A stretch of 41,382 bases of DNA from Patescibacteria group bacterium (lineage in GTDB: Bacteria > Patescibacteriota > Microgenomatia > UBA1406 > GWC2-37-13): the NCBI GenBank assembly GCA_026415975.1, contig JAOAFZ010000008.1:1-41382 (forward strand), read 5' to 3'. Made by a program: the position numbers and the translations under genes. The notes below the pieces were generated by a model. That model was given only the letters and a program-made list of their open reading frames with translations. It was not told the DNA's origin and searched no databases. Shown one piece after another: positions 307-16,904 of the stretch. Position 1 is the stretch's first letter; each line of letters opens with the position of its first letter.

Positions 307-997
307 TTAGATTTTATTTTTTTTTATATCGTTTTCCAAGCTGCTCGCCTCAGCTTGTAGCTCTAGAATCTTCTTTTCGTTCGCTCTATAAATGGGGCTG
401 TCTTCCTCGATATGTATTATCTTCAAGCTCCGTTCATTGATTTCATGAGTTAATTGATTTAGTACTCCTTGCTTATTCAAGCATTGCCTTTGCAATTCTT
501 CATGCTTTTTTTCTAAAATGACTTTTATTTTTTCTAAATATTTCCGGTACTCATGCTCTGAAAAATTTAATCCTTCAGAGAAAAACGAATAAAGGTAATC
601 CAACACAACCTTGATCCGTATCGATTTTTTTGAACGCTCACATCTTTTTGTACCACACCGTGCATAGAGATAAGGCCTTGCTCCTGTTGAGGGAGCTATC
701 CACATGTTCTTTTTGCAATATACGCATGCAATTAGTTGTCTGAAGGGATAGAAGTTCTTTTCTGTTCTATAGCCTTTTTTTCGAGTTGTTTTTTTGTATT
801 TTAAAATAATCTTCTTCTGATACTGTTTGGCTGAAATCATAAATAGATCTTAGATCAGTATATTTGTTATTTTTTTTAGAATAGAGCATTCCATAGTAAA
901 ACGGATCACTGAAGATACGAGAGAGCGCATGAATATCTATTCTGATTTTTTTTATCTGATTTTGTCGTTCGAACATAACCCCGCTCTCAAACTTCAC
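307..997 (-). pseudogene. Large serine recombinase, broken C-terminal remnant
   Basis: Two minus-strand reading frames make one protein when joined. The upstream frame (997 down to about 790) carries the recombinase-domain signature around SRIFSDPFYYGML. The downstream frame (about 800 down to 307) carries a zinc beta-ribbon with CVYC and CGTKRC, then a Lys/Glu-rich coiled coil, as in the C-terminal half of large serine recombinases. The frame changes near 790-800, between the DYFKIQ and KKTTRKKG segments. The N-terminal catalytic resolvase domain is missing: upstream sequence runs into the HEPN-like remnant on the other strand. Such enzymes move phages, integrative elements and some transposons, so this is probably the dead integrase of the surrounding island. 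Confidence 0.8.
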
Positions 998-2246: not shown

Positions 2247-4137
2247 ATGAGTAAAAAGCTCGAGCACAAGATTGAGGCAAATGATACATCAATCGGCGCA
2301 CTGCTCAAATAACAAAAGTTCACAATAGAATATTTCCAACGTGAATATCGCTGGCAAGAGAAGCACATGAGGCTTCTCATAGATGATCTCACATCAACTT
2401 TCCTCAAATCATTCAGGCCAGAGCACAAGCGGTCAGAGGTCGAAAATTACCAAAACTATTATTTGGGCCCGGTGGTATTTAGCGAGCGGGATGGTCTTAA
2501 GTCAATTATTGACGGTCAACAACGGATTACATCCATCACGCTCTTTCTTATTTTTCTCAACCATCTACAGAGAGATTTTGCAGAAAAGGTGTCGATTAGC
2601 GATCTCATTTACTCAGAAAAATACGGGGAGAAATCGTTCAATATGATTGATGAAAATAGAAGAGCATGTTTGACCGCACTATTTGAGACGGGCGAATACT
2701 CTCTCCAAAAAGAAGATGATGAGACAGTGCAGAACATTGTGGCACGTTATGAGGATATCGATCAGGTGTTTCCGGAAGAAATGAAGAAATGAAGCAGTGC
2801 TTCCGTACTTTATCGATTGGTTTAAGGAGAATGTTGTTGTCGTCAAGATAACGGCATACTCAGATGAAAACGCCTACACTATCTTTGAGACGATGAATGA
2901 CCGTGGTCTCAATGTCACACCGACCGAAATGCTTAAGGGGTATGTACTCTCAAAAATTACAGACCCATATCAAAGAAACGAGATGAACGATATCTGGAAG
3001 ACCCAGATTCAGAGACTCCATGAGGTCGAGGATAACGCTGATCAGAATTTTTTTCAGGCATGGTTTCGGGCAAAGTATGCAAAAAGTATCAGGCCGGGAA
3101 AAGCCGGGTTTGAAGATCAGGATTTTGAACTTATTGGTTCCCGATTTCACAACTGGTTTAAAGAGAATCATAAAGCGCTATCTGACATACATACCTCAGA
3201 TGACATGTATTCCTTTTTCAAAGAGCAGTTTCCCTATTTTGTAGATATTTATCTTCAGATTATTTCCGCACAAAATTCACTGAATGCGAACATTCCCCAT
3301 GCCTACTATATCGGCAGATGGGTGATCGGAGAATCATTGCAACATCCACTTCTTCTTGCTCCCATACAATTTGGAGACGACCTAAAGACGATTGAGCGAA
3401 AGATTGATTTTATGGCCAGATATATCGAGACTTTTACTGTGCGACGATCAGTAAATTATCGGAAGTTCGGTCATTCCTCAATAAAATACACGATGTTCAA
3501 CCTTGTCAAAGCGGTCCGTGACAAGGACCTCACGTCATTGGCAAAAATTCTAGTAAAAAAAGTGCGCGAGATTCCAGAAACTTGGGAGGGGATCATGAAT
3601 TTTGGCCTTCACGGCATGAATGGTGTCTTCGTAAAGCATCTGCTATGCCGGATCACGAGCTATCTTGACAGAATTGTGGGGAAAGATACTACATACGTCA
3701 CATATTACCATTCCAACCGGGAAGCAATTTGAGATTGAGCATATCTGGGCAAATAAGTTTGAACAACATACCGATGAGTTTGATCAGGAGAATGAGTTTT
3801 CCGCTTGGCGCAATTCTATTGGAGCGCTCGTATTGTTGCCACAAGGCACAAACCAATCCTTCAGCAGTGATCGGTACGAGGACAAGCTTGCGCACTATTT
3901 GAAGGAGAATACCTATGTACAGACACTTCACCCTTCCTTTTACGAAAAGAATCCGACATTTGTCAACTCTGCGATAATTCAGAGTTGGGTTTTAAACCCC
4001 ATGAGCACTTTACCAAACAAGATATCCTCGATAGGAAAAGATTGGTACAGCGCATTTGTGAAAAACTGTGGTCAGAGGAGTATTTTTTTGAGAATTTGTT
4101 AGAAACGAAACATGTAGAGAGTAATCAACATGAATAG
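2247..4137 (+). pseudogene. GmrSD-type (DUF262 + DUF1524) restriction protein, inactivated
   Basis: The reading frame starts at ATG 2247 (MSKKLEHKIEAND), meets TAA at 2310, and continues with IEYFQREYRWQ and the DUF262 signature DGQQRITS. It shifts frame near 2790 (into LPYFIDWF and TIFETMNDRGLNVTPTEMLK). A second shift near 3700 leads into the DUF1524 HNH-like segment (FEIEHIWANKF, WRNSIGALVLLPQGTNQSF). A third shift near 3975 restores KPHEHFTKQDILDRKRL to the stop at 4135. In the GmrSD/BrxU family DUF262 is the NTP-dependent half and DUF1524 the His-Asn-His nuclease half, together cutting modified (often glucosylated 5-hydroxymethylcytosine) phage DNA. One nonsense codon and three frameshifts mean it is very unlikely to work. 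Confidence 0.88.
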
Positions 4138-4771: not shown

Positions 4772-4883
4772 TGCTTCTTCCCGACAAGGTACAGATAGAG
4801 AGTACAAAAGCAACAAAAGAAGAGAAGACAAGGTCGGAAGTTTATCCTGTGTACTTCCAGGGTTTTCTGGCAATTCTTTTAGG

Positions 4884-5134
4884 AGGAACTACCGGAGTGT
4901 ATGTCTGCTCTCTAGGTGAGGCACGTGTTTTGTTATCTAAATACCCTTTATCCACCACAATTGAGCAGCCAGTGCTCGTCCTTTTGGTGCGTCATGTGCA
5001 TGTCTCGGCCCTATTTTGTTGATTGGTAAACCACCCCGTGATCTTCCCAGCGATTGCACCCCCTTTTTTAACCGCATCTAAAAGCTGACTGGTGACTTTC
5101 TGCTTATGCAACTTGCAGCATCTTTCCAAATACT
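4884..5134 (-). repeat. Dispersed repeat, copy 1 (inverted partner at 11491-11700)
   Basis: About 190 bases (4884-5071) match the reverse complement of 11513-11700. By hand, a 119-base core around the 20-mer at 4950 differs at about 15 positions, roughly 87% identity. A further 22 bases (5113-5134) match 11491-11512, with about 41 bases between them absent from copy 2. The two copies face each other around the P450/helicase module. They could be remnants of one duplicated gene, or a repeat through which the module was inserted or inverted. Confidence 0.8.
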
Positions 5135-5377: not shown

Positions 5378-5383
5378 TATAAT
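5378..5383 (+). promoter_or_regulatory. Probable -10 box for the P450 gene
   Basis: A perfect TATAAT lies 16 bases before ATG 5400, in an AT-rich stretch (5340-5383). A start about seven bases downstream would leave a leader of roughly ten bases with no Shine-Dalgarno sequence. No convincing -35 box is seen. Confidence 0.55.
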
Positions 5384-5399
5384 TACTTCCCTAACACTT

Positions 5400-6692
5400 A
5401 TGTCAGAAATATACGAGAGATGGCGGCTTCCCCGTAGTCTTAACACAGGGGAGATAGTTGGAAGATTGCTTCAATTGCGCGATCCTTTCCCCGTACCCAT
5501 GGGTTTGAGCGGAATTGTGCTAACAACCGCAAACAGAAAGTTAATTTCATATTGGAGCAATCCTGATTATTTTAATAAGGTTGGGCCTAGATGGCAGCCG
5601 ATAAATGAATGGACCGGTCCCAGATCCGCATTTATGCCAACAGGAGAAGACTGGGGTATACGCAGTAAGGGCGCAAAAGACGCGTATAGAAATGATCTAT
5701 TTGGTCAATGGCAAGGAGAACCAATCGCGGAAATTACAAAGGCTCTAAACATACCTTCCGATGGCATGGTGGATAATTTGTATTCCAAGGTAAAAGCCTT
5801 AGCCTTACAGATTGCGGCAGACTTATTATACGGAGTGAAGATCGAGATGGCACAAGCAGAAAGAATTGCATCTGCTTATGGGACTCTTAATGCTTACAAT
5901 GCGCGCAACTCGCTTACCGGGGGATTGTTGGACCGTCTTAGGTGCCCTCCGACTAATTTTGATGCCTTTGCAGCGTTTAAAGAGGATGAATTGCCTCGGG
6001 CTTCTGCGAGTCCTTTCGATTGGCTTCATGGCGATTTTACCGAAAGCCTGAAAGCAATCTGGAACTTTGGTCGAATGCTTGTGCAACAGTCGAAGCAATC
6101 GGCAATCGCAGAAAAAATGCGCAATGCGGGTTTATCCGAGGATGATCAGATACGGGAGGCAACTGTTCAGATTGGGGGTGCGCACGGGGCACCCGGAGCC
6201 CTTATCAGCAGCGTATTAACATGTTTGGCAATGCCCGAAAATATACAATACCAAAGAATGTTGCGATCTCAACCGGATCTTTTGCCGTCAGTTATCCAGG
6301 AAACATTGCGGCTTTACCCGCCATTCTGGGTGCAGTTGCGACATTGCGTCAGCAATGTGAATTTGCCGGGAATAAGCATCGGGGCAGGCACAGATGTGTT
6401 ATTCTGCACCTATGTTGCAGATAGGGATCCTAAAATATATGGACCCAAAGCCGACCGGTTCATGCCGGAGCGTTTTGCAAGTAACCCCATTCTTAGAAAA
6501 CACCTTACCTCATTTGGATTCGGTCAAAGGCGCTGTCCCGCAGGTCATATTGGGGTGGAAATTGCAAGGCTGGTTGTGCAAGAAATAGTTGAAAAATATT
6601 CTTTCGAAGCGGTTGGCACCCCTCGTTTTACCTTTGGTGACACACTGCATCCGAGTGATACGAATCGTATGCTTTTTATCGCTCGAAGTTGA
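5400..6692 (+). CDS. Cytochrome P450
   Basis: This 430-residue protein has the full P450 signature. The K-helix ExxR is ETLR (301-304), the PERF motif is PERF (356-359), and the heme loop FGFGQRRCPAG (372-382) supplies the thiolate ligand Cys379. There is no signal peptide or membrane anchor, so it should be soluble like most bacterial P450s. The I-helix, where the acid-alcohol pair (A/G-G-x-D/E-T) normally activates O2, reads GGAHGAPGA (259-267) and lacks both residues. P450s without that pair often use peroxides or rearrange them (CYP152 and CYP74 types), so a reductase-independent reaction is an inference; no ferredoxin or reductase gene is in this window. P450s are unexpected in such reduced genomes. 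The substrate is unknown. Confidence 0.93.
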   Translation: MSEIYERWRLPRSLNTGEIVGRLLQLRDPFPVPMGLSGIVLTTANRKLISYWSNPDYFNKVGPRWQPINEWTGPRSAFMPTGEDWGIRSKGAKDAYRNDLFGQWQGEPIAEITKALNIPSDGMVDNLYSKVKALALQIAADLLYGVKIEMAQAERIASAYGTLNAYNARNSLTGGLLDRLRCPPTNFDAFAAFKEDELPRASASPFDWLHGDFTESLKAIWNFGRMLVQQSKQSAIAEKMRNAGLSEDDQIREATVQIGGAHGAPGALISSVLTCLAMPENIQYQRMLRSQPDLLPSVIQETLRLYPPFWVQLRHCVSNVNLPGISIGAGTDVLFCTYVADRDPKIYGPKADRFMPERFASNPILRKHLTSFGFGQRRCPAGHIGVEIARLVVQEIVEKYSFEAVGTPRFTFGDTLHPSDTNRMLFIARS

Positions 6693-7182: not shown

Positions 7183-10100
7183 TTACGTTATACCACGAAT
7201 AAAATACCTTTTATCACCACTACTGATGATAAGGGCTGGTAACCCTCGGGATGTAAACTCTCGATTAAAGCTATAGATCGCGTTTTCGAAACTTCCCAAT
7301 ACAAAACCTTTTATAGTTCGCATCTCAAAAGAACTGAACGAACCTTTTTCCATTGCTGTATCAAGATAATCCACAAACCGGCCCTTTGGTACGATCACAA
7401 AAGGTTGTATACTAGATTTAGTAGGGAATACAACAATGCGGCGTGCCCTCTGTTCAATTGTATTTTCCCCGGTGGGTTTTCTCCAAACTACCTTAGCCTC
7501 CGGCAGTTCTATAACGTGTGCGTTCGTACGATCACTTGTGCTGGTGGCCCAGCGCAGCGCTTCTCTGTTTACCGCTTCAGGCAGGTTAAGCTGAGCTAAA
7601 CAAGCGTATGTATCATCTCCTGTTCCTTGAAGCCTTTGCCACACAACAAGCCTTACCCCGAACGCATACTCAATTCTACGTAACTCATTTCGAGCTGGGG
7701 GATTATACTCAGCGGCTTTTCCCATTAATTTTTCTACTATAGTATTGTCTAAAAATCCCCGATTATTAATGAGCTCCTTGATTATATGCGACAATTCCGG
7801 ACACTGTCTTGATACTGGGATAAAAACTGGTGATTGAGCTTTGTTTTCACTACAAACTAGCACGAAATCGTTTTGAAAGACCCCGTTCGTTTCTTCGGCT
7901 TGTATATACCGGACTCGCAGTCTTTCATCAAATAATTGATGTGTCGTTTCTAACAACTCTGGTTGAAATTCACTTAGGTATTCAACCACGCTCTTGAGCC
8001 ACTCAAGATTAATTGATTTAGCATTTAGATTCTGTTCCCCAGTCGGCAACATCAGAAGCCCTCTAGCATACCAGTAGATGGTATTTTTGTATTTAAGTGT
8101 AGACCCTTTTTGATAGTCTTTTTCAGGAGGCTTATAACGATCCAGCGTTGTAACGGGTACTCTTCTACTCAGTTCATCATTTATATAGTCATAAAGCGTT
8201 GGAGGACCCAGATGAGGAAAGTGCATATTAAGAAGCCAGCCGGGAATAAATCCGCCATTTTCGGCGGCTTGTTCCAGAAGTGCGTTTGTAATTTCGGAAG
8301 CAGGAACCTGTTCGACAGCTTTTAAGCGCCTGCAAAGTGCCACCACGCCTCCGGGAGCATTGCTCTCTGTTGATTCCTTGCTGGTGATACATTGTAAAAT
8401 GTATGGCCCCAGGGAATATTCGGCCTTATCGGTCAGCGGTTTTCCTTTACCCGTTGCAGATCTGGTCTTTGGTACAGGCATGGTCTCCTGCATGCCCATT
8501 TTGCCACCGTCTTGCACCCCTTCCAAATGATCACCCCCATGAGCGAAGAGACTAGAAGCGGGAGCCTGGTCAGGATTACCGGTGATTGGAGGTTGCGCGG
8601 CTTCTGCCAATTTAGTTATTGCTGCAGCTCCCTCTTGATTTTCCCGCTCCTGTTGATTGCGAGTAGTTTCTTGTTCGGACCACAGCCTGATAACATTCCT
8701 GACGAATGCCAAAACGGTAGCATTGTCAGGTTCCTGTGCAGAGGGTATATTCTGTGGATTCCGCTTTTCTTCCTTGGCCTTCCGCTGTTCATTCATTTTT
8801 GCAATCAGCGATTTCCGTTCTTCCCGCTGGGTTAGTAGTGACTTTGCCAGAAAAAAAATATGAGGAGGTATTTCCTCAAATCCTGGCTCAAAATGCAGTT
8901 TAAAGAATCTACTATATTCTTCAAGGAGCACGATCGCATCACGTATTGGTTGTTCATGTGCTTGATAATACTTGTCGAATATGTTAGCTAAAGCAATCTG
9001 AGTTAGTTTCTCATCGGGTAACTCATCAAAAGCGTTTACGTCCTTTAAGATTCGCACTCCTTCATTCCGGTAGTAGTTGGCTATACGCCTGAGGCAGCGT
9101 TCCATAAAGGTTTTATGGGCTTGAGAATCTACTAAACTTGGAAATGATAGGTCTTTTAAAACTTGTCTGCCGGATAGCTCGCTTCTGATCTGGGCATAAA
9201 TGTGAAATGTATCAATTGTTACTTCGCGATCGAGTAAACCATTTTCAATCCAATACTCCATATGTTTCAAAAGATCTTCTCTGGACATTTCACTATTGAG
9301 CCAGGTGTTTGAAGTTAAAAAATCACCGGGCGAGGGGAAAACAGGGGAGAATGGTATTGGTTCCGGAGCCTCTTGTAGATTCGCTTCAGTTTGAGGGTGT
9401 GTGGTAGTGTACACGGGTATATCAGGTTTCAGCGTCTGTGGATTTAGAATTTGAGGGTCATTTGATATCATTATTGCCCAGATATCAGGTTTGTATCCCC
9501 ACGTTTCCCAGCTTGAAAGCAGGCTCTCGATAAATGAATTAAGATTAGCAGCTTGGGTACCAATCTCTGTTGCTTTTGGTGTGAACATGGGATTTGACCG
9601 CTGCCACAACCACACCATATATTGAAGCCGCATACCAAGAGTACAATATTCGCCAAGATCCACATGAACACCTTGATCTTTCGACCACTCTGCGAGCGCC
9701 TGTTGCGTGTTTAGTTGAGTAACAAGAAGGCCCTCAGAGCCAAACCTGCCAATTAACTTCAGCATAAGTGGTGCATACTCCCGAAATCTGGTTGCCCTTA
9801 AACTGTCAAGTTGCTTTGAAAGTTCTTCAATAGCAACATCAGGGGAAATGGCGGGCACAGCTGGCGGAGCTGATATTTCGGATATATCTTCCATCCATGG
9901 GGGCTTTTGACCGGTGATACTAGCATTTACCCTTATGTTTTCTATTATACGTTGCAGAAGTAAAGTACCTTCTGACCCTGAAGACCCGTTGGTAACCAAG
10001 GGAATAATAATGGTATTTTGCTGAAAACCTCTATTCGGGCGGTGAATCCTGTGTACAGCCTGATCAAACTGGGCGCCGTTTGGCGGTAATGTAAGAAAAA

Positions 10101-11316
10101 TTACGTAGGTTTTCGATTCTATCGGGTTCAGTCCCAGAGACGCAGCAGCTGATTCATAGGTACAAAGAGCCACTCTGTTTTGTTGGAGTGAAGCTATTTC
10201 CGTTGAGAGCCTAAAAGCACCACTGTAAAGTTGCGTTGCTCTGATGCCTTTTTTTTGTAATAATTTACGCAAAGATTCAAGCGAGTACGGGGCCGTTTCG
10301 GATTCACTTTCTGCGAACCTTGAAAAAACAATAATTGTGGCGTTCGGGTTTTCAAGAAGCTGATCGATAAGGTGTGCTACCCACGGATACAGTATCGAAG
10401 CCTCATCTTGAAGCGTTGTATTTTGCTTATCTGTGGGAATACGTAGAATAAATGTCCTAATTGGTGGCATTTCAAAAAAATCTTCCTGATGGCGACATAT
10501 AGCAGGAATTTGAACATTATCTGTACCCGTCCACATTTTCAGCTCGGAAACATCTTTGTTTACCGGTGTCCGAGTTGTTATCATAAGATGACCACCGCGT
10601 CTTCGTAACCTAGACCATAGATTAAGTAGTGCCTGAGTGCGCTTTGCCTCGGGATTCGCACCGCCTAGTTGTAGCTCCTGTGCTTCGTCTATTACCAGCA
10701 GATCAGGCGCAATCGTACTTTCCAGGCTTTCCGTTAGATTTTCAAGAAGAAAAGCCTCATGGGAAAGAAATATCACTCCTGAGGAAAACCGGCCTAATTG
10801 GTCCAATTGTTCCCGTGGTGTAAGGTTATTGTTAGGGTCATTCCATAGGAACATTTCGTAAGGGCTTACTCCCGCTTCGAGGTAATCTTTATGGGCCTGC
10901 TGAATCTGACGGTTTGTTCCGACAACGATCATTCTACTTTCTCCGGCTCCAAAAGTGGGTTCGAAACGGTACGCTAGCCAAGTGAGGAGCGACGTATAAG
11001 TTTTTCCCATGCCATAGTCATCGTGGTTTGCAACGATAGAGTTTCCAATTAGCATGTGAATTAATTCCATTGCTCCCGCCAGCTGATATATATAAGGGTC
11101 TCGGCGGAGACCGAGACGCTGAAATTCCGGAGCGATTTTAATCCAAAAATCCCGTATCGTACGGAACAATTCCGGGTAGGGAACAGCCTCTTCTTGAAAA
11201 CCGCCAAGTAACACACGTTGAGGAATGCCTTTGTTTCCAAAATAACGATGAATAGCAGCCAGTTTGGGAACGTAATTTTCATGTGAAAAATCAAATTCAG
11301 GTCCCCGTGATGACAT
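7183..11316 (-). CDS. Giant SNF2-type helicase/ATPase with a large unassigned C-terminal region
   Basis: This 1377-residue protein starts with a superfamily 2 SNF2-like motor. Motif I is DDYGMGKT (99-106), motif II is VIDEAQ (208-213, DEAQ in place of DEAH), motif III is ITTRTPVN (246-253), and motif VI is QAVHRIHRPNR (419-429). About 900 residues follow that I cannot assign. A polar, probably disordered linker at about 820-960 separates a helical middle part from a C-terminal part with mixed helix and strand character. No nuclease, methyltransferase or protease motif is evident. Such motors remodel or translocate on DNA, for example as RapA-like factors or in defence systems such as DISARM and Dpd. 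The gene has its own strong promoter and converges with the P450 gene. A role in defence or regulation is inference only. Confidence 0.85.
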   Translation of the reverse strand: MSSRGPEFDFSHENYVPKLAAIHRYFGNKGIPQRVLLGGFQEEAVPYPELFRTIRDFWIKIAPEFQRLGLRRDPYIYQLAGAMELIHMLIGNSIVANHDDYGMGKTYTSLLTWLAYRFEPTFGAGESRMIVVGTNRQIQQAHKDYLEAGVSPYEMFLWNDPNNNLTPREQLDQLGRFSSGVIFLSHEAFLLENLTESLESTIAPDLLVIDEAQELQLGGANPEAKRTQALLNLWSRLRRRGGHLMITTRTPVNKDVSELKMWTGTDNVQIPAICRHQEDFFEMPPIRTFILRIPTDKQNTTLQDEASILYPWVAHLIDQLLENPNATIIVFSRFAESESETAPYSLESLRKLLQKKGIRATQLYSGAFRLSTEIASLQQNRVALCTYESAAASLGLNPIESKTYVIFLTLPPNGAQFDQAVHRIHRPNRGFQQNTIIIPLVTNGSSGSEGTLLLQRIIENIRVNASITGQKPPWMEDISEISAPPAVPAISPDVAIEELSKQLDSLRATRFREYAPLMLKLIGRFGSEGLLVTQLNTQQALAEWSKDQGVHVDLGEYCTLGMRLQYMVWLWQRSNPMFTPKATEIGTQAANLNSFIESLLSSWETWGYKPDIWAIMISNDPQILNPQTLKPDIPVYTTTHPQTEANLQEAPEPIPFSPVFPSPGDFLTSNTWLNSEMSREDLLKHMEYWIENGLLDREVTIDTFHIYAQIRSELSGRQVLKDLSFPSLVDSQAHKTFMERCLRRIANYYRNEGVRILKDVNAFDELPDEKLTQIALANIFDKYYQAHEQPIRDAIVLLEEYSRFFKLHFEPGFEEIPPHIFFLAKSLLTQREERKSLIAKMNEQRKAKEEKRNPQNIPSAQEPDNATVLAFVRNVIRLWSEQETTRNQQERENQEGAAAITKLAEAAQPPITGNPDQAPASSLFAHGGDHLEGVQDGGKMGMQETMPVPKTRSATGKGKPLTDKAEYSLGPYILQCITSKESTESNAPGGVVALCRRLKAVEQVPASEITNALLEQAAENGGFIPGWLLNMHFPHLGPPTLYDYINDELSRRVPVTTLDRYKPPEKDYQKGSTLKYKNTIYWYARGLLMLPTGEQNLNAKSINLEWLKSVVEYLSEFQPELLETTHQLFDERLRVRYIQAEETNGVFQNDFVLVCSENKAQSPVFIPVSRQCPELSHIIKELINNRGFLDNTIVEKLMGKAAEYNPPARNELRRIEYAFGVRLVVWQRLQGTGDDTYACLAQLNLPEAVNREALRWATSTSDRTNAHVIELPEAKVVWRKPTGENTIEQRARRIVVFPTKSSIQPFVIVPKGRFVDYLDTAMEKGSFSSFEMRTIKGFVLGSFENAIYSFNREFTSRGLPALIISSGDKRYFIRGIT

Positions 11317-11321
11317 CCCAT

Positions 11322-11350
11322 ATTATACTATAGGACTATATACAATGCAA
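11322..11350 (-). promoter_or_regulatory. Strong promoter of the helicase gene, likely leaderless
   Basis: On the minus strand TTGCAT (11345-11350) and TATAAT (11322-11327) are separated by exactly 17 bases. Only five bases lie between the -10 box and ATG 11316, so transcription should begin at or within a base or two of the start codon. There is no room for a ribosome-binding site. Confidence 0.75.
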
Positions 11351-11490
11351 ACTCCGCAGAATTTGCACTGGCATAAGATGGGAGTTCTGGCACCACCGCA
11401 AGGTTGTCTCTTTAGCCGATGTTTATGGATTGATCACCAGATTCAGCGACTGTTCCTGGTCTATGTATAGCAGGCATGTTGCCGCCTGGG

Positions 11491-11700
11491 GAGTACTTGG
11501 AAAAATGTTGCTCAAAAAAAGGGGAAGCAATCGCCGGGAAGATCACGGGGAGGTTTACTAAGCAACAGAATAGAACCGGAACACGCACATGACGCACCAG
11601 CAGGACGAGCACTGGTTGCTCAATTGTGGTGGACAAGGGTATTCAGATAACGGAACACCTGCCTCACTCAGAGAGCAAACACACTCTCCGGTAGTTCTTC
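11491..11700 (+). repeat. Dispersed repeat, copy 2 (inverted partner at 4884-5134)
   Basis: This copy matches the reverse complement of 4884-5134 as described there, but lacks about 41 internal bases. Both copies keep a TGA in the frame that reads KKGEAIAGKITGRFT, so the shared sequence was either already non-coding in that frame when duplicated or is not a gene. It fills the spacer between the helicase promoter and the surface-protein gene at 11748. The rest of that spacer (11351-11490) shows only short unconvincing frames. Confidence 0.8.
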
Positions 11701-11735
11701 ACAAATCAAAAAGTCTGTTTATCCAGTCACTTTGG

Positions 11736-11741
11736 TATCAT
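11736..11741 (+). promoter_or_regulatory. Possible -10 box close to the start of the surface-protein gene
   Basis: TATCAT ends six bases before ATG 11748, repeating the short -10 to ATG spacing seen at other genes here. No good -35 box is visible, so the assignment is weak. Confidence 0.35.
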
Positions 11742-11747
11742 GGATAC

Positions 11748-14018
11748 ATGAGAAGCTACCATGATTCGTTCCATATCTTAATCAGCTCCTTCTCTCTTTT
11801 GATTAAGGGCATGGTGATCCTTGCACTCATAACGCTTGTTTGGCCACTTGCCGCTTACGGTGAGGGGGTAGCAGCGCCTCGTGTGGAAATTCAGGTTATA
11901 CAACGTCTCGAAGGACAGGAAATCCCCCTACCGGGGATCTACGTTGAGACGTACACACTCACCAACGCTCCTATTCCAGGCCAAAATCCAAATGATACTT
12001 CGAAGGGGAACGTTATAAACATGCGTTACAGACGTACGAATCCTCAAGGGATCGTTAGTCTTGATCCACTTGCTCCTCAACCATACAACACGATAACACA
12101 AATCGACATTAACGGGGACGGGCGGCTAGACACATTTTTTTTCCCAACTTTACCTAATGCATATACAGCTGCTATAAACAAACAGCTTATGACAATAAAC
12201 GGGGAGCCAGTCACCGAAGACCTGACGTACTGTCAAGGAGATCCAGGCTACAAGTACACCAAAGTATACAAGAACGGCGTCACGGTAGAAGATCGCAACG
12301 GACATGACTGCCGGGTTCTGTCTCGTATGAATATGCTCTGTTACAGCTCTCCGTTCTACTCGAGTCCCATTTTACGAACCGACATGAGAGGAAAGTTTGA
12401 ATATACAATGCGGGTACCAGCAAAAAGCGATAATCTGATTAAGATTGAACGATGCAATGGTCCGTACACGAGCAATTTCGGCGAAGGTAAGGGATACACC
12501 GCATGTACAATGTCCGATCCACTTGGCAGGGGTTTTGATGTATTGCGGTACGGATATGGTAATACTTTTGACAGCATCCGGTTCACTGCGGTGTTTATAC
12601 CAGATATCACACCGACTCCAACACAAACTCCAACATCCACGCCGCGTCCCACGAATACCCCAACATTAACGCCTACTCCTACTCCCACGCCCACTCCTAC
12701 TCCCACGCCTACGCCCACCCCCACTCCCACACCTACGCCAACACCTACCCCAAAGCCCATCCGCACTGAATCGTTTCGCGACGAAACCACACTAAAACAA
12801 CAGGCGAGTAAGGGGTCAATACGGATATATTGCCCAGAAACCGCGATTTGTGCTTCTGCCGTAGCACCGGACGGGGAAAGATGCACTACTTCTCGGGCCA
12901 GCAACTCCGGTAATATCCATATCAAACGGGTCAAGATCTCCGGCATCGCCAGCATATTTGGGCGCATTTTCCGAGAAGATAAAAAAGAGTTGTGGATCAT
13001 GGAGTGCTACAGGGGTCTAGAGGGTGACTCTACCTACACCTGTACCACGGGGAGCGATGACACAGACGAAAAACTCATGGGACCAGGCCGAAAGAATACC
13101 ACGAAACTTAAGAACGCGATCGGCTACCAGTCGAACTTGTTCCAGATCGTAAATGGAAAAGCAGTACCTGTCGCTCCGGCGGCAATAACAGAACGATCAG
13201 TATGGCCAGAATACGAACTAGAAACCGTCCTTACTCGTGCCGCCGCAAGTGTTGTGGTGATTGCACATAAAACGAATATGCCCGATCGGGTTGATCCGGG
13301 CAGTATTGGCGGCCAACAGTTTGGCACCTTATCGTTTGGTTCGGAATGTAAGATTGTTCACGATCCATACGGACGGGTATTTGATGCAGTCACACTAGAA
13401 CCACTTGAAGGTGTTCGCGTTACGCTCTTCCGCCTGACCGACTCTGGCTACGAACCTCTCCCAATGGAAAGAGTAATAGAAGGCGTTGATCCCGTGTTTG
13501 CAAATCCCATCACCACCCGGGCCGACGGAGCATTTACATTCCATGTGCCGGACGGAACATACCGTCTGTCAGCGGATCGTCCGGGGTATAGCACACTCAC
13601 AGACACCAAACACACATCCACACGGGGGTTATATTCCGGGGGAATATATCACGGTGGTGATATCGTGCAGTTCGGGCATGCTGTCGAAACAAATATTCCA
13701 TTGATGCCGGAAGACCGGGGTGCCGCAGAACGATTCGCGCGACAAAACCGGGTCTCATTGGTCGAAGGAAAGGTAACAACCATCGGCACAACACGTCGCG
13801 TCAGCGGCGTCACATCCCATCCCCACAGTCGAGTCACTTTGGAAATGGTTACTCCGGAGGGTAAATCCTTAGAAACCCGATCCTTAACTGCCGACAACTG
13901 GGGAGGGTTTTCTACAGTGTTTAACCTGCCGGAAGATCGTACCGCCAGAATACGGATAAGCCTCGAAAAAACGCCTCCGTACCGCCCTGCACCTCGCAAC
14001 ACGTTCTGGATGGAATAG
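11748..14018 (+). CDS. Large secreted surface protein with a Thr-Pro linker
   Basis: I place the start at ATG 11748 because a signal peptide follows at once (hydrophobic core MVILALITLVWPLAAYG). Upstream codons in the same frame lie inside the dispersed repeat. The mature protein has an N-terminal Cys-containing domain with a calcium-loop-like DINGDGRLD, and a Thr-Pro linker at about residues 288-335. A Cys-rich middle follows, then a SIGGQQF segment and a carboxypeptidase-regulatory-like Ig fold (DPYGRVFDAVTLEPLEGVRV, then TRADGAFTFHVPDGTYRL). A second such fold seems to end the protein. It is a paralog of the convergent gene ending at 14162. It probably sits on the cell surface; binding target unknown. 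Confidence 0.8.
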   Translation: MRSYHDSFHILISSFSLLIKGMVILALITLVWPLAAYGEGVAAPRVEIQVIQRLEGQEIPLPGIYVETYTLTNAPIPGQNPNDTSKGNVINMRYRRTNPQGIVSLDPLAPQPYNTITQIDINGDGRLDTFFFPTLPNAYTAAINKQLMTINGEPVTEDLTYCQGDPGYKYTKVYKNGVTVEDRNGHDCRVLSRMNMLCYSSPFYSSPILRTDMRGKFEYTMRVPAKSDNLIKIERCNGPYTSNFGEGKGYTACTMSDPLGRGFDVLRYGYGNTFDSIRFTAVFIPDITPTPTQTPTSTPRPTNTPTLTPTPTPTPTPTPTPTPTPTPTPTPTPTPKPIRTESFRDETTLKQQASKGSIRIYCPETAICASAVAPDGERCTTSRASNSGNIHIKRVKISGIASIFGRIFREDKKELWIMECYRGLEGDSTYTCTTGSDDTDEKLMGPGRKNTTKLKNAIGYQSNLFQIVNGKAVPVAPAAITERSVWPEYELETVLTRAAASVVVIAHKTNMPDRVDPGSIGGQQFGTLSFGSECKIVHDPYGRVFDAVTLEPLEGVRVTLFRLTDSGYEPLPMERVIEGVDPVFANPITTRADGAFTFHVPDGTYRLSADRPGYSTLTDTKHTSTRGLYSGGIYHGGDIVQFGHAVETNIPLMPEDRGAAERFARQNRVSLVEGKVTTIGTTRRVSGVTSHPHSRVTLEMVTPEGKSLETRSLTADNWGGFSTVFNLPEDRTARIRISLEKTPPYRPAPRNTFWME
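12609..12752 (+). repeat. Degenerate ACNCCN repeat encoding the Thr-Pro linker
   Basis: About 24 consecutive Thr-Pro-like codon pairs (act-cct, act-ccc, acg-ccc and variants) encode the linker of the surface protein, with a few Gln, Ser, Arg, Asn and Leu substitutions near the start. The 6-base unit repeats in phase, so slippage would lengthen or shorten the stalk by two residues without a frameshift. The antisense strand gives a spurious Gly-Val open frame. Confidence 0.9.
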
Positions 14019-14161: not shown

Positions 14162-15955
14162 CTATTTACTAGGCACCGACATTAGGGGGATATTGCGACG
14201 AACCGGCTCTCCCTTTTGTACAATCCAGGTTCCGTCATAGAGAGGACCATATTTACTTGATATCTGAGGGTCGAGAGGTATGGTTGCAGGAAACTGATAG
14301 CCCGGCTTTCTAACGAATAATTTATAATTTCCGTCAGGCACCATAAAAGCAAACGCACCGTCAGCACCGGTTGTAACGGGATTTGTAAAGGTGCGATTCG
14401 TCCTTTCGCCGTAAACGTCTCGAGCAGTAACGGGGACTTGCGTACCCGCGGGAGACTTCATTGTCAACAAAACCTCCGCATTTGCCAACGGAACTCCGGT
14501 TACAGAATCGAAAACTATACCATATGGATCTTTCAGGACAGTGCACCCAGTAGCAGATGTTAATGTTGCGAATTGTTGGCCACCTATGCTCCCATCTGGG
14601 GCGGATGTCGTTAATCCGGGTCGAAATCCGAGCATAAACATGCTGGTCGTGTCGGGAATAGACAGAGATTCCCACTCAACCTCGTCAAGACCTGCGTTTG
14701 TTGATGCCCGAAGATTACGATCAGCAAGTGGTACCCCGTTCTTACCGAAAACAGCAACGGGGAAGTTTCCCGCTTCTATGCCTAGCCTTGAGTCTATCGC
14801 GGGATCCCCCGTTGTGCAGGAGTAAGAATTGCGGGAGCTCAAATCGGTACCGTTTGCGGCCACACACTCGACCAGATAGATGGGTTCTCCAGTTGGCAGG
14901 GCATTCTGCAAGCGGTCAAGTACCGCAAGAATACCACCAACCTTAACACGTTTCTTACCCTCAGACGCCTTGGCAGTACAGCCCGCTGCTTCGTCAGCGC
15001 AACTTCGCGACTCGGTGCAATAGAAATTTTGCCATTCTGTTTCCTTGATATTTGCATCCATCCGTTCAACGGATTTACTGGGTGTCGGAACTTCCGATAC
15101 AAACTCGACAAAGAAGGTAAGGTTCGCGATTGAATTGCCGTGCCCCCAACGAACCACTTTAAATCCACGACCTAAGGGATCGTCGGTTACACACGCGCCA
15201 TAATTGTTGCTTTCTCCAAAATCCTGGGTGTAAGGTCCGGTACATTCGGCAAGTGGCTTCTGTTCACCATTACTGTGCGATACCGCCTTGAATACGAATG
15301 TCCCCTGCATATCCTTGCGCATCACCGGACGGGCATAAAACGGGGAAGTTCCGCAGAGGAAATTCATACCCGATTCAAGTTCACAATCACCGCCGCGGAC
15401 GTTTCGAGTATCGTTTTTAAGACGGGTAAACTTGTAGTTACCACTCGCCATGCAATACTTCGGGTCTTCCGTGATCTCTACACCATTAATATTGACAGTC
15501 AGTTCTTTGTCCGGGTTTGCCGTGTAAGCTTTAGGTGAACCAACGATCCTGAAGGTGTCCATCTGACCGTCCCCGTCGATATCGATCGGTGTTGTGCCGT
15601 ACTGAGCACCTTCCGGGGATAACGTTTCAAACGTGGTTATGCCGTCAGCGCCTGTTTTACGGAATCGAAAATTGACAATATTCCCCTTTGAATCCACTTT
15701 ACCCAAATCCGAGGGGGTGATCGGATGATTTGTCAAGGTAAAAGTTTCGAAATAGATGCCCGAAAGGGGAGTAGTGGCTCCGTCTTTGGTTGCCACTATA
15801 GAAAAATTGATGAGGGGACCTTGGCCTTCCTCTGCGTGTACCACAAAAGGTGCGACAAGTAAAACAAACCCAGCGAGTGCACAGTATATAACGCCTACAA
15901 ATGCAGATTGTTGTATCGAGCAGGAAAAAAAACGCTCAATAACGTTCGATTTCAT
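14162..15955 (-). CDS. Secreted surface protein, paralog of the gene at 11748
   Basis: ATG 15955 is chosen because a signal peptide follows (MKSNVIERF, then a hydrophobic run ending VVHAEEG). Farther-upstream starts would overlap the preceding gene by over 100 bases. The 597-residue product shares its plan with the convergent paralog: an ETFTLTNHPI segment, a DIDGDGQMD loop, a Cys-rich domain (CGTSPFYARP, then CTGPYTQDFGE and DPLGRGFKV), SIGGQQFATL, and a C-terminal carboxypeptidase-regulatory-like fold (DPYGIVFDSVTGVPLANAEV). It lacks the long Thr-Pro linker. The start overlaps the end of the foldase gene by 20 bases, implying coupled translation. It is probably exported and displayed; the role is unknown. 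Confidence 0.8.
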   Translation of the reverse strand: MKSNVIERFFSCSIQQSAFVGVIYCALAGFVLLVAPFVVHAEEGQGPLINFSIVATKDGATTPLSGIYFETFTLTNHPITPSDLGKVDSKGNIVNFRFRKTGADGITTFETLSPEGAQYGTTPIDIDGDGQMDTFRIVGSPKAYTANPDKELTVNINGVEITEDPKYCMASGNYKFTRLKNDTRNVRGGDCELESGMNFLCGTSPFYARPVMRKDMQGTFVFKAVSHSNGEQKPLAECTGPYTQDFGESNNYGACVTDDPLGRGFKVVRWGHGNSIANLTFFVEFVSEVPTPSKSVERMDANIKETEWQNFYCTESRSCADEAAGCTAKASEGKKRVKVGGILAVLDRLQNALPTGEPIYLVECVAANGTDLSSRNSYSCTTGDPAIDSRLGIEAGNFPVAVFGKNGVPLADRNLRASTNAGLDEVEWESLSIPDTTSMFMLGFRPGLTTSAPDGSIGGQQFATLTSATGCTVLKDPYGIVFDSVTGVPLANAEVLLTMKSPAGTQVPVTARDVYGERTNRTFTNPVTTGADGAFAFMVPDGNYKLFVRKPGYQFPATIPLDPQISSKYGPLYDGTWIVQKGEPVRRNIPLMSVPSK

Positions 15956-16904
15956 AGGACTTCTTTGCCATTTGTAACCATTCTTCATAACTTCCGGCTT
16001 CACCCTTCGGAGGATTGTTTCGGGTAACCTGAGCAAACATATACAGAGCTTCACGACGACCGTCGCCCGATCCCACACTTATTAACCTGACCGGAGAAAC
16101 CTCTCCTGGCTTCAGGGAGCGGATTATTTTGTCGAACTCCGGGTCGAATGTAATAGCTTCAGCGGCGGGAACATCTTCAAAAGTAAAGATCGCGTTTTGT
16201 TGCCACACCGGATCGAGCTGGGCAAGCGACGTATCATCCTTAATAATGCGCGCAACCTCGATAATCGATCGATCGCCAGACACAACCGAAGCTCGAGCAG
16301 CTTCTATTTTTTGTTTAGCAATCTGCTTTCCGCGTTCATACCCAATCGGACCCGCAGTGCCGTTGTTGAAGAACCAGATCGATATCACTGCTCCGCTTAC
16401 GGATCCCGTTTGCGCATCGACGGCAGCTTTCACCTTATTGATAGCGTCGCTACGGGCCGTGTAATTTTTATTCATACTGTTATAAAAAGACGGTGACAGT
16501 GTGATCATACCAGCCTTCGCTCCCGCCTGGAGCGCTATGGATTCGTTAATAATTTGTTCGAGAGCTACATCGCGTGATGATTCACGCAGGCCAGCAGGAT
16601 ACAAATCAAGGATTCGTTTCAAATCGGTTGAGTAGAGTACTTCGTCACCTACGACAGCAACGGCTCCTGGCGAGGGGGGTTGCTTAGCAAAGGTGGGATT
16701 GGCGCTTGGCACAACAGAGTTCTCCACCTGATTGCCGGTGTTGTTTTGTGCGGAACCTTCCCGGTTTGTTTCGGCACGCTTGTCCGTATTCCGCAGAATA
16801 GATATCATAAGCACCAGGGCGACAAGCAGTATTACTAACACGCCGCCGATTGCGATCATAAGTTTCGGGTTAGGTCCGGATGACGATGGTAGGGTTGGGT
16901 CCAT
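15936..16904 (-). CDS. Membrane-anchored SurA/PrsA-like parvulin foldase
   Basis: This 322-residue protein has a short cytoplasmic N-terminus, one membrane helix (about residues 16-37), a polar linker, and then a SurA-N-like helical region (VAVVGDEVLYSTDLKRIL, NESIALQAGAKAGM). Its C-terminal segment (FDPEFDKIIRSLKPGEVSPV) resembles the end of a parvulin peptidyl-prolyl isomerase domain. ATG 16904 is preferred over an upstream TTG at 16934. Because its stop overlaps the start of the secreted protein gene, it may fold that client outside the membrane. The parvulin part is divergent, so catalytic activity is uncertain. Confidence 0.65.
   Translation of the reverse strand: MDPTLPSSSGPNPKLMIAIGGVLVILLVALVLMISILRNTDKRAETNREGSAQNNTGNQVENSVVPSANPTFAKQPPSPGAVAVVGDEVLYSTDLKRILDLYPAGLRESSRDVALEQIINESIALQAGAKAGMITLSPSFYNSMNKNYTARSDAINKVKAAVDAQTGSVSGAVISIWFFNNGTAGPIGYERGKQIAKQKIEAARASVVSGDRSIIEVARIIKDDTSLAQLDPVWQQNAIFTFEDVPAAEAITFDPEFDKIIRSLKPGEVSPVRLISVGSGDGRREALYMFAQVTRNNPPKGEAGSYEEWLQMAKKSYEIERY

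Follow-up and report, generated by a model that had tools for sequence, protein, structure and literature searches.

We examined a 41,382-nucleotide stretch of DNA from a Patescibacteria group bacterium (GenBank assembly GCA_026415975.1, contig JAOAFZ010000008.1), referred to here as the window, and focused on one long gene on its minus strand. The gene encodes a protein of 1377 residues in which an N-terminal motor of superfamily 2 (SF2) is followed by a C-terminal tail of about 900 residues. Around this motor gene lie a cytochrome P450 gene, two inverted-repeat arms, a split restriction gene, a recombinase remnant and, at the contig edge, a tRNA-Pro gene (Table 1).

The motor gene and its SF2 domain

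The motor gene runs from an ATG at 11316 to a stop at 7183 without interruption, and a random open frame as long as this at 44% GC has a probability of ~3e-35. The composition of the open reading frame (ORF) was coding-like, with G at 0.295 in codon position 1 and 0.163 in codon position 2. When scored with a host codon table whose training genes lie farther right in the window, frame 0 came out above the other two same-strand frames in 12 of 13 segments of 100 codons, the margin being weak, and the GC content at third codon positions (GC3) was 0.38 compared to 0.42-0.62 in the genes to the right. Taken together, the weak margin and the low GC3 suggest that the codon usage of the motor gene is foreign. 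The gene was found in a single copy in its 1.31-Mb genome, whose size and gene content are in keeping with Patescibacteria. A sigma70-type promoter-like site stands directly ahead of the ATG and no ribosome-binding site was visible there, which makes a leaderless mRNA likely.

All five motor motifs examined (I, II, III, V and VI) were found in SF2 order across two RecA-like lobes. Motif I is DDYGMGKT (residues 99-106, with the Walker A sequence GMGKT), motif II is the DExx Walker B sequence DEAQ (210-213), motif III is TRTPVNKD (248-255), motif V is AAASLGLN (about 390-397) and motif VI is QAVHRIHRPNRG (419-430), which contains QAVHRIHR. On these motifs the motor can be assigned securely to SF2. 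The wording of the motifs follows the SNF2 signature in two places, namely the TPxxN that follows motif III, seen in TRTPVNKD, and the QAxxRxHR of motif VI. SNF2 is probably the subfamily of the motor.

Profile comparisons were made with an SNF2 profile built from eight SNF2 proteins, leaving out the motor protein and its nearest relative. In hhalign this profile aligned to the separate motor lobes with probabilities of 90% and 93%, and to the motor protein with 97.2%, compared to 96.2% for E. coli RecQ, 96.2% for HsdR and 99.8% for a true SNF2 protein. The hmmsearch scores were 26.7 bits for the motor protein, 35.2 for RecQ and 148.7 for the true SNF2 protein. Pfam returned Helicase_C alone for the motor, below threshold (21.6 bits against a cut-off of 23.5), and no protein of the genome matched PF00176. 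Matches to SNF2 proteins in the PDB obtained with a two-row profile (A3) were rejected as proof of SNF2 membership, since the second row is itself a clear SNF2 protein.

SNF2 proteins typically bear multihelical inserts between their two lobes. The span from motif III to motif VI measured 175 residues in the motor, compared to 230-249 in six SNF2 proteins and 142 in RecQ, and the segment in which the SNF2 helical inserts would lie thus falls 55-75 residues short of its length in those six proteins. This short span suggests that inserts of the SNF2 type are absent or strongly reduced in the motor protein.

Table 1. Position, strand and basis of the features identified at the locus; residue numbers refer to the motor protein.
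Feature	Position	Strand	Basis or remark
tRNA-Pro (TGG), 5' end cut by contig edge	1..73	plus	Rfam RF00005, 57.6 bits, and sequence
Recombinase zinc-ribbon remnant, serine-recombinase-like	307..840	minus	E 0.0017, below cut-off
Decayed restriction gene of GmrSD type, in pieces over three reading frames	2367..4102	plus	ORFs and library match
Inverted repeat, left arm	4878..5069	plus	~330 nt upstream of P450 start
Cytochrome P450, intact (ETLR, PERF, FGFGQRRCPAG)	5400..6692	plus	Convergent with motor gene; has a TATAAT box of its own at 5378-5383
1377-aa ORF, SNF2-like SF2 motor followed by an orphan C-terminal region	7183..11316	minus	ORF listing and sequence
C-terminal region, residues ~961-1377, predicted alpha/beta	7186..8436	minus	No library match, no confident fold
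Polar linker with little order, residues ~836-960, largely disordered by prediction	8437..8811	minus	Charge-hydropathy values
Middle region, residues ~480-835	8812..9879	minus	No match in any library
Motor, residues ~75-460	9937..11094	minus	Motifs by sequence, profile tests, motif spacing
Promoter-like site, sigma70-type, TTTGCA-18-TATAAT	11322..11351	minus	Sequence; ends 5 nt before motor ATG
Inverted repeat, right arm	11515..11705	minus	~200 nt upstream of motor gene start
Pair of related secreted proteins bearing carboxypeptidase-regulatory-like domains	11589-14018 and 14162-16078		Facing each other

The tail of the motor protein

Residues 460-1377, searched whole and in pieces, gave no match in Pfam, PHROGs, NCBIfam, PADLOC or the PDB sequences. 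A motif scan of the tail showed no nuclease, phospholipase D (PLD; HKD), HNH, methyltransferase or zinc motif. A loose PD-(D/E)xK pattern matched twice, once across the DEAQ of the motor itself and once in the tail, and the tail match was taken as chance. In the charge-hydropathy plot, residues ~801-940 fell on the disordered side.

Structure prediction from the single sequence, with no homologs, gave a predicted local distance difference test score (pLDDT) of 36.5 for the last 355 residues. The best score, 66.5, was obtained for a piece of 79 residues (1168-1246), on which the five models disagree (38.8-66.5). The model of this piece, consisting of two helices and three strands, found no PDB match at E <= 0.001. 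A tandem winged-helix reading, proposed by eye for residues ~1175-1240 and ~1306-1377, was not upheld by this model or by Pfam, and the two pieces aligned with each other no better than shuffled sequences. A sigma-factor remnant was also sought, prompted by the relative described below, and no sigma match was obtained with the tail pieces or in pairwise comparison.

The first-pass annotation of this DNA, made from the sequence alone, had described a complete SF2/SNF2 motor followed by some 900 unrecognised residues and a long disordered linker; it gave no strand for the gene, which proved to be the minus strand. The unrecognised region and the linker were confirmed, and the SF2 motifs are indeed all present. 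However, to call the motor a complete SNF2 domain overstated the case, given the profile results, the sub-threshold Helicase_C match and the short span between motifs III and VI. The tail showed no similarity to known housekeeping remodellers, an outcome that would have spoken against the first-pass interpretation.

Genomic setting and distribution

Judged from the sequence of the window, the setting is a decaying genomic island beside the tRNA-Pro gene, and this gene, detected by Rfam and missed by ARAGORN, is the probable edge of the island. No repeat of the tRNA 3' end that could serve as the far attachment site was found, so that the right border of the island is not fixed.

The inverted-repeat arms share 187 nt at 86% identity and enclose two intact convergent genes, those for the P450 and the motor protein. 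Both arms are placed alike with respect to the neighbouring gene, 200-330 nt ahead of its start and in matching orientation, so that they could be copies of a duplicated upstream region or, equally, the ends of an element. A common mobile repeat was considered and set aside, as only two copies occur in the genome and none were found in 18 relatives or in plasmids. An operon of the P450 and motor genes was likewise rejected, since the genes converge and each has its own promoter-like site.

The P450 carries the heme-ligand motif FGFGQRRCPAG, and the usual acid-threonine pair of the I-helix seems absent (GGAHGAPG). Its closest plasmid P450s are ~22-30% identical to it. P450s were found in two of 380 genomes of the phylum, counting this one; the other (locus L015) is of a different type, and no SF2 gene was found among the ORFs of at least 150 aa in the 4.1 kb around it. 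Of the two related secreted proteins, one contains a long TPTPTP repeat; the start listed for it probably lies too far upstream, as a signal peptide is seen near codon 75. The genes that follow to the right are those for secreted proteins, Dps, an Mg2+ ATPase, type II secretion or pilus components, BipA, PGK and GAPDH, together with pyrF- and pyrE-like genes that were named from their sequence by eye.

Overlapping samples of 185 related genomes, 380 genomes of the phylum and 373 genomes of the class yielded no full-length relative of the motor protein. Weak matches in other genomes of the phylum (E 0.002-0.07) were regarded as chance, as a search of 380 genomes should by itself give about one match at E 0.002-0.003. 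Searches by tblastn of 50,697 phage and 72,556 plasmid records also returned no relative, nor did peptide-pattern scans of GTDB genomes and IMG/VR, a method that requires short peptide matches and that distant relatives may escape. Motif-anchored scans of viral and GTDB contigs gave 597 and 87 pattern matches, respectively, none of which was confirmed; these scans used artificially varied rows (alignments A1 and A2), which are search devices and not real proteins.

Most of what had been proposed for the setting was borne out. An accessory module had been suggested, and it is supported by the tRNA-Pro edge, the recombinase remnant, the low GC3 and the absence of the gene from all sampled relatives; the flanking inverted repeats and a decayed defence gene nearby, now recognised as GmrSD in three reading frames, were also recovered. 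Homologs confined to core operons would have spoken against the first-pass interpretation, and no such homologs were seen; no full-length homolog was found at all.

The state of the island raises the question of whether the motor gene is an orphan without selected function, a recent acquisition heading for decay like its GmrSD neighbour. The decay of GmrSD and the recombinase, the foreign codon usage of the motor gene and the lack of a conserved partner are in keeping with such a history. However, its 1377 codons contain no stop or frameshift while GmrSD is broken twice, and the motor motifs and the promoter-like site are intact. We give this explanation little credence.

Interpretation and comparison with known systems

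SNF2-like motors track along duplex DNA without unwinding it. Our tentative preference is for the motor protein being a horizontally acquired, probably SNF2-like DNA translocase whose orphan tail would serve for targeting or as an effector, at work in conflict between the cell and mobile DNA. In this proposal, the ATP-driven SF2 motor would translocate on duplex DNA, and the tail, with its helical middle, flexible linker and alpha/beta end, would bind a target or carry an effector. The tail may recognise a particular DNA or DNA-protein state, on which translocation by the motor would then act. The protein would be cargo of the decaying tRNA-Pro island.

Several observations favour this proposal. 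The catalytic residues of the motor are all present in an intact ORF with its own promoter-like site, and the SNF2-type wording of the motifs is accompanied by a collinear two-lobe alignment with the SNF2-sigma70 protein discussed below. The truncated tRNA-Pro, the recombinase remnant, the broken GmrSD gene, the GC3 of 0.38, the single copy and the absence from the sampled relatives, one motor-only match aside, mark the setting as an island, and the best family matches of the motor are to phage helicases (phrog_62).

Other observations weigh against it. The profiles do not separate the motor from other SF2 helicases, so that an RNA substrate or strand separation may apply, and the phrog_62 match lies mainly in motifs V-VI, which are common to SNF2 helicases at large. 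Library searches recognised no second conflict domain anywhere in the protein, no partner gene in the same direction lies beside the motor gene, and no full-length homolog was found, hence none with which to test an association. As to the side served, cell or mobile element, the phage-helicase match and the neighbouring defence relic both count, and each of them weakly.

A further step would be to regard the gene as an undescribed single-gene conflict system, in which a reduced SF2/SNF2-like motor powers a tail of 900 residues with an unrecognised fold and is kept by an ultra-small bacterium in a tRNA-Pro island with a decayed defence gene; this stronger claim appears improbable. For a lineage whose genome measures only 1.3 Mb, spending 4.1 kb on a single accessory protein is expensive. 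One orphan without a family makes a candidate and supports no general rule.

The sole relative in the 373 class genomes was a match restricted to the motor, in an SNF2-sigma70 fusion from another genome of the class. This fusion is a single ORF of 1536 aa (L020:4646-9256, minus strand, genome G584, contig C14) with PF00176 at 298-448, Helicase_C at 604-724, then sigma70 regions 2 and 4, and a weak helix-turn-helix (HTH) match in its C-terminal part. Its motor is a clear SNF2 domain (PF00176, E 7e-16) and was not found in the 14 other genomes of its family. The two-lobed motors align collinearly, with lobe 2 (residues 302-459) 27% identical over 158 residues (E 9e-7, per genome), whereas the motor protein lacks the sigma regions and the likeness stops at the motor. 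No SNF2-sigma70 fusion was mentioned in the titles and abstracts of the papers listed on these subjects. Elsewhere, an 856-aa ORF (L071:13-2583, plus strand, genome G642, contig C11) apparently joins a DnaG-like primase to a full RpoD, as a fusion or an assembly effect, and in genome G565 (L072) the DnaG-like primase and RpoD are adjacent separate genes.

The SNF2-sigma70 fusion recalls RapA, an RNA-polymerase-binding ATPase of the SNF2 kind. The motor protein might likewise be a transcription- or chromosome-associated motor that works on RNA polymerase or on stalled complexes, as the closest sequence relative of its motor is this fusion. However, the likeness to the fusion is limited to the motor, library searches detected no sigma, RNA-polymerase-binding or HTH family in the tail, and the distribution of the gene is accessory. 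Such a role is very unlikely. Compared to RapA/HepA and other bacterial SNF2 ATPases more generally, the motor protein shares the order and wording of the motifs, and both of its lobes can be aligned with the SNF2 profile, but its profile score is no better than those of RecQ and HsdR and its III-VI span is shorter.

SNF2 ATPases are described as common across phages, conjugative elements and systems of the restriction type, and SWI2/SNF2 ATPases as a hub domain of polyvalent proteins, which in phages and conjugative elements use SNF2 motors in the manner proposed above (PMC5512222). The motor resembles phrog_62, a phage DNA helicase family of 1881 positions and its best family match (E 2.5e-8), in motifs V-VI of lobe 2; unlike a full member, it matches only in short motor stretches, and the rest of the family is unmatched. 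With DarB-type polyvalent proteins the whole protein shares its large size, an SF2/SNF2-like motor and an island with mobile-element traces. It may be carried by an element whose DNA it protects or processes, and be stranded here as a remnant, and the phrog_62 match, the recombinase remnant, the inverted repeats and the hub role of SWI2/SNF2 ATPases in polyvalent proteins are consistent with this. However, the adenine methyltransferase, metallopeptidase and ArdC-N domains of polyvalent proteins were not recognised by Pfam, PHROGs or motifs, the phage, plasmid and IMG/VR searches returned no relative, and the island holds no structural or transfer genes. We regard this explanation as possible, though unlikely.

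An equally modest chance is given to single-gene anti-phage defence, in which the tail would sense the DNA or a protein of a phage, and an effector borne by the tail would be driven by the motor. A role in defence or DNA modification, possibly as a single-gene system, had been the first-pass suggestion; the present results neither bear it out nor contradict it, and none of them ties the protein to defence. The setting of a large SF2 protein in an island beside a type IV restriction relic accords with this, and the genes transferred in Patescibacteria are reported to be enriched for defence (PMC12455944). In PADLOC the whole protein had no match, and the motor alone weakly matched PLD_Helicase (NF042964, PDLC02193) and PbeA through lobe 1 (E 0.01 and 0.05). 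However, these values reflect generic helicase motifs, and the protein differs from PLD_Helicase in lacking the HKD motif and in scoring 12.9 bits against a curated cut-off of 1100. The tail also lacks a convincing effector motif of the kinds scanned for, no homologs in defence islands were found, and the P450, which is the one intact neighbour, is not a defence gene.

Returning to the proposed translocase of cell and mobile-DNA conflict, the motor protein is, next to these systems, an orphan architecture built on a known motor. If its tail is an effector or a sensor, an undescribed architecture would be added to the many conflict proteins already known to be driven by SF2/SNF2 motors.

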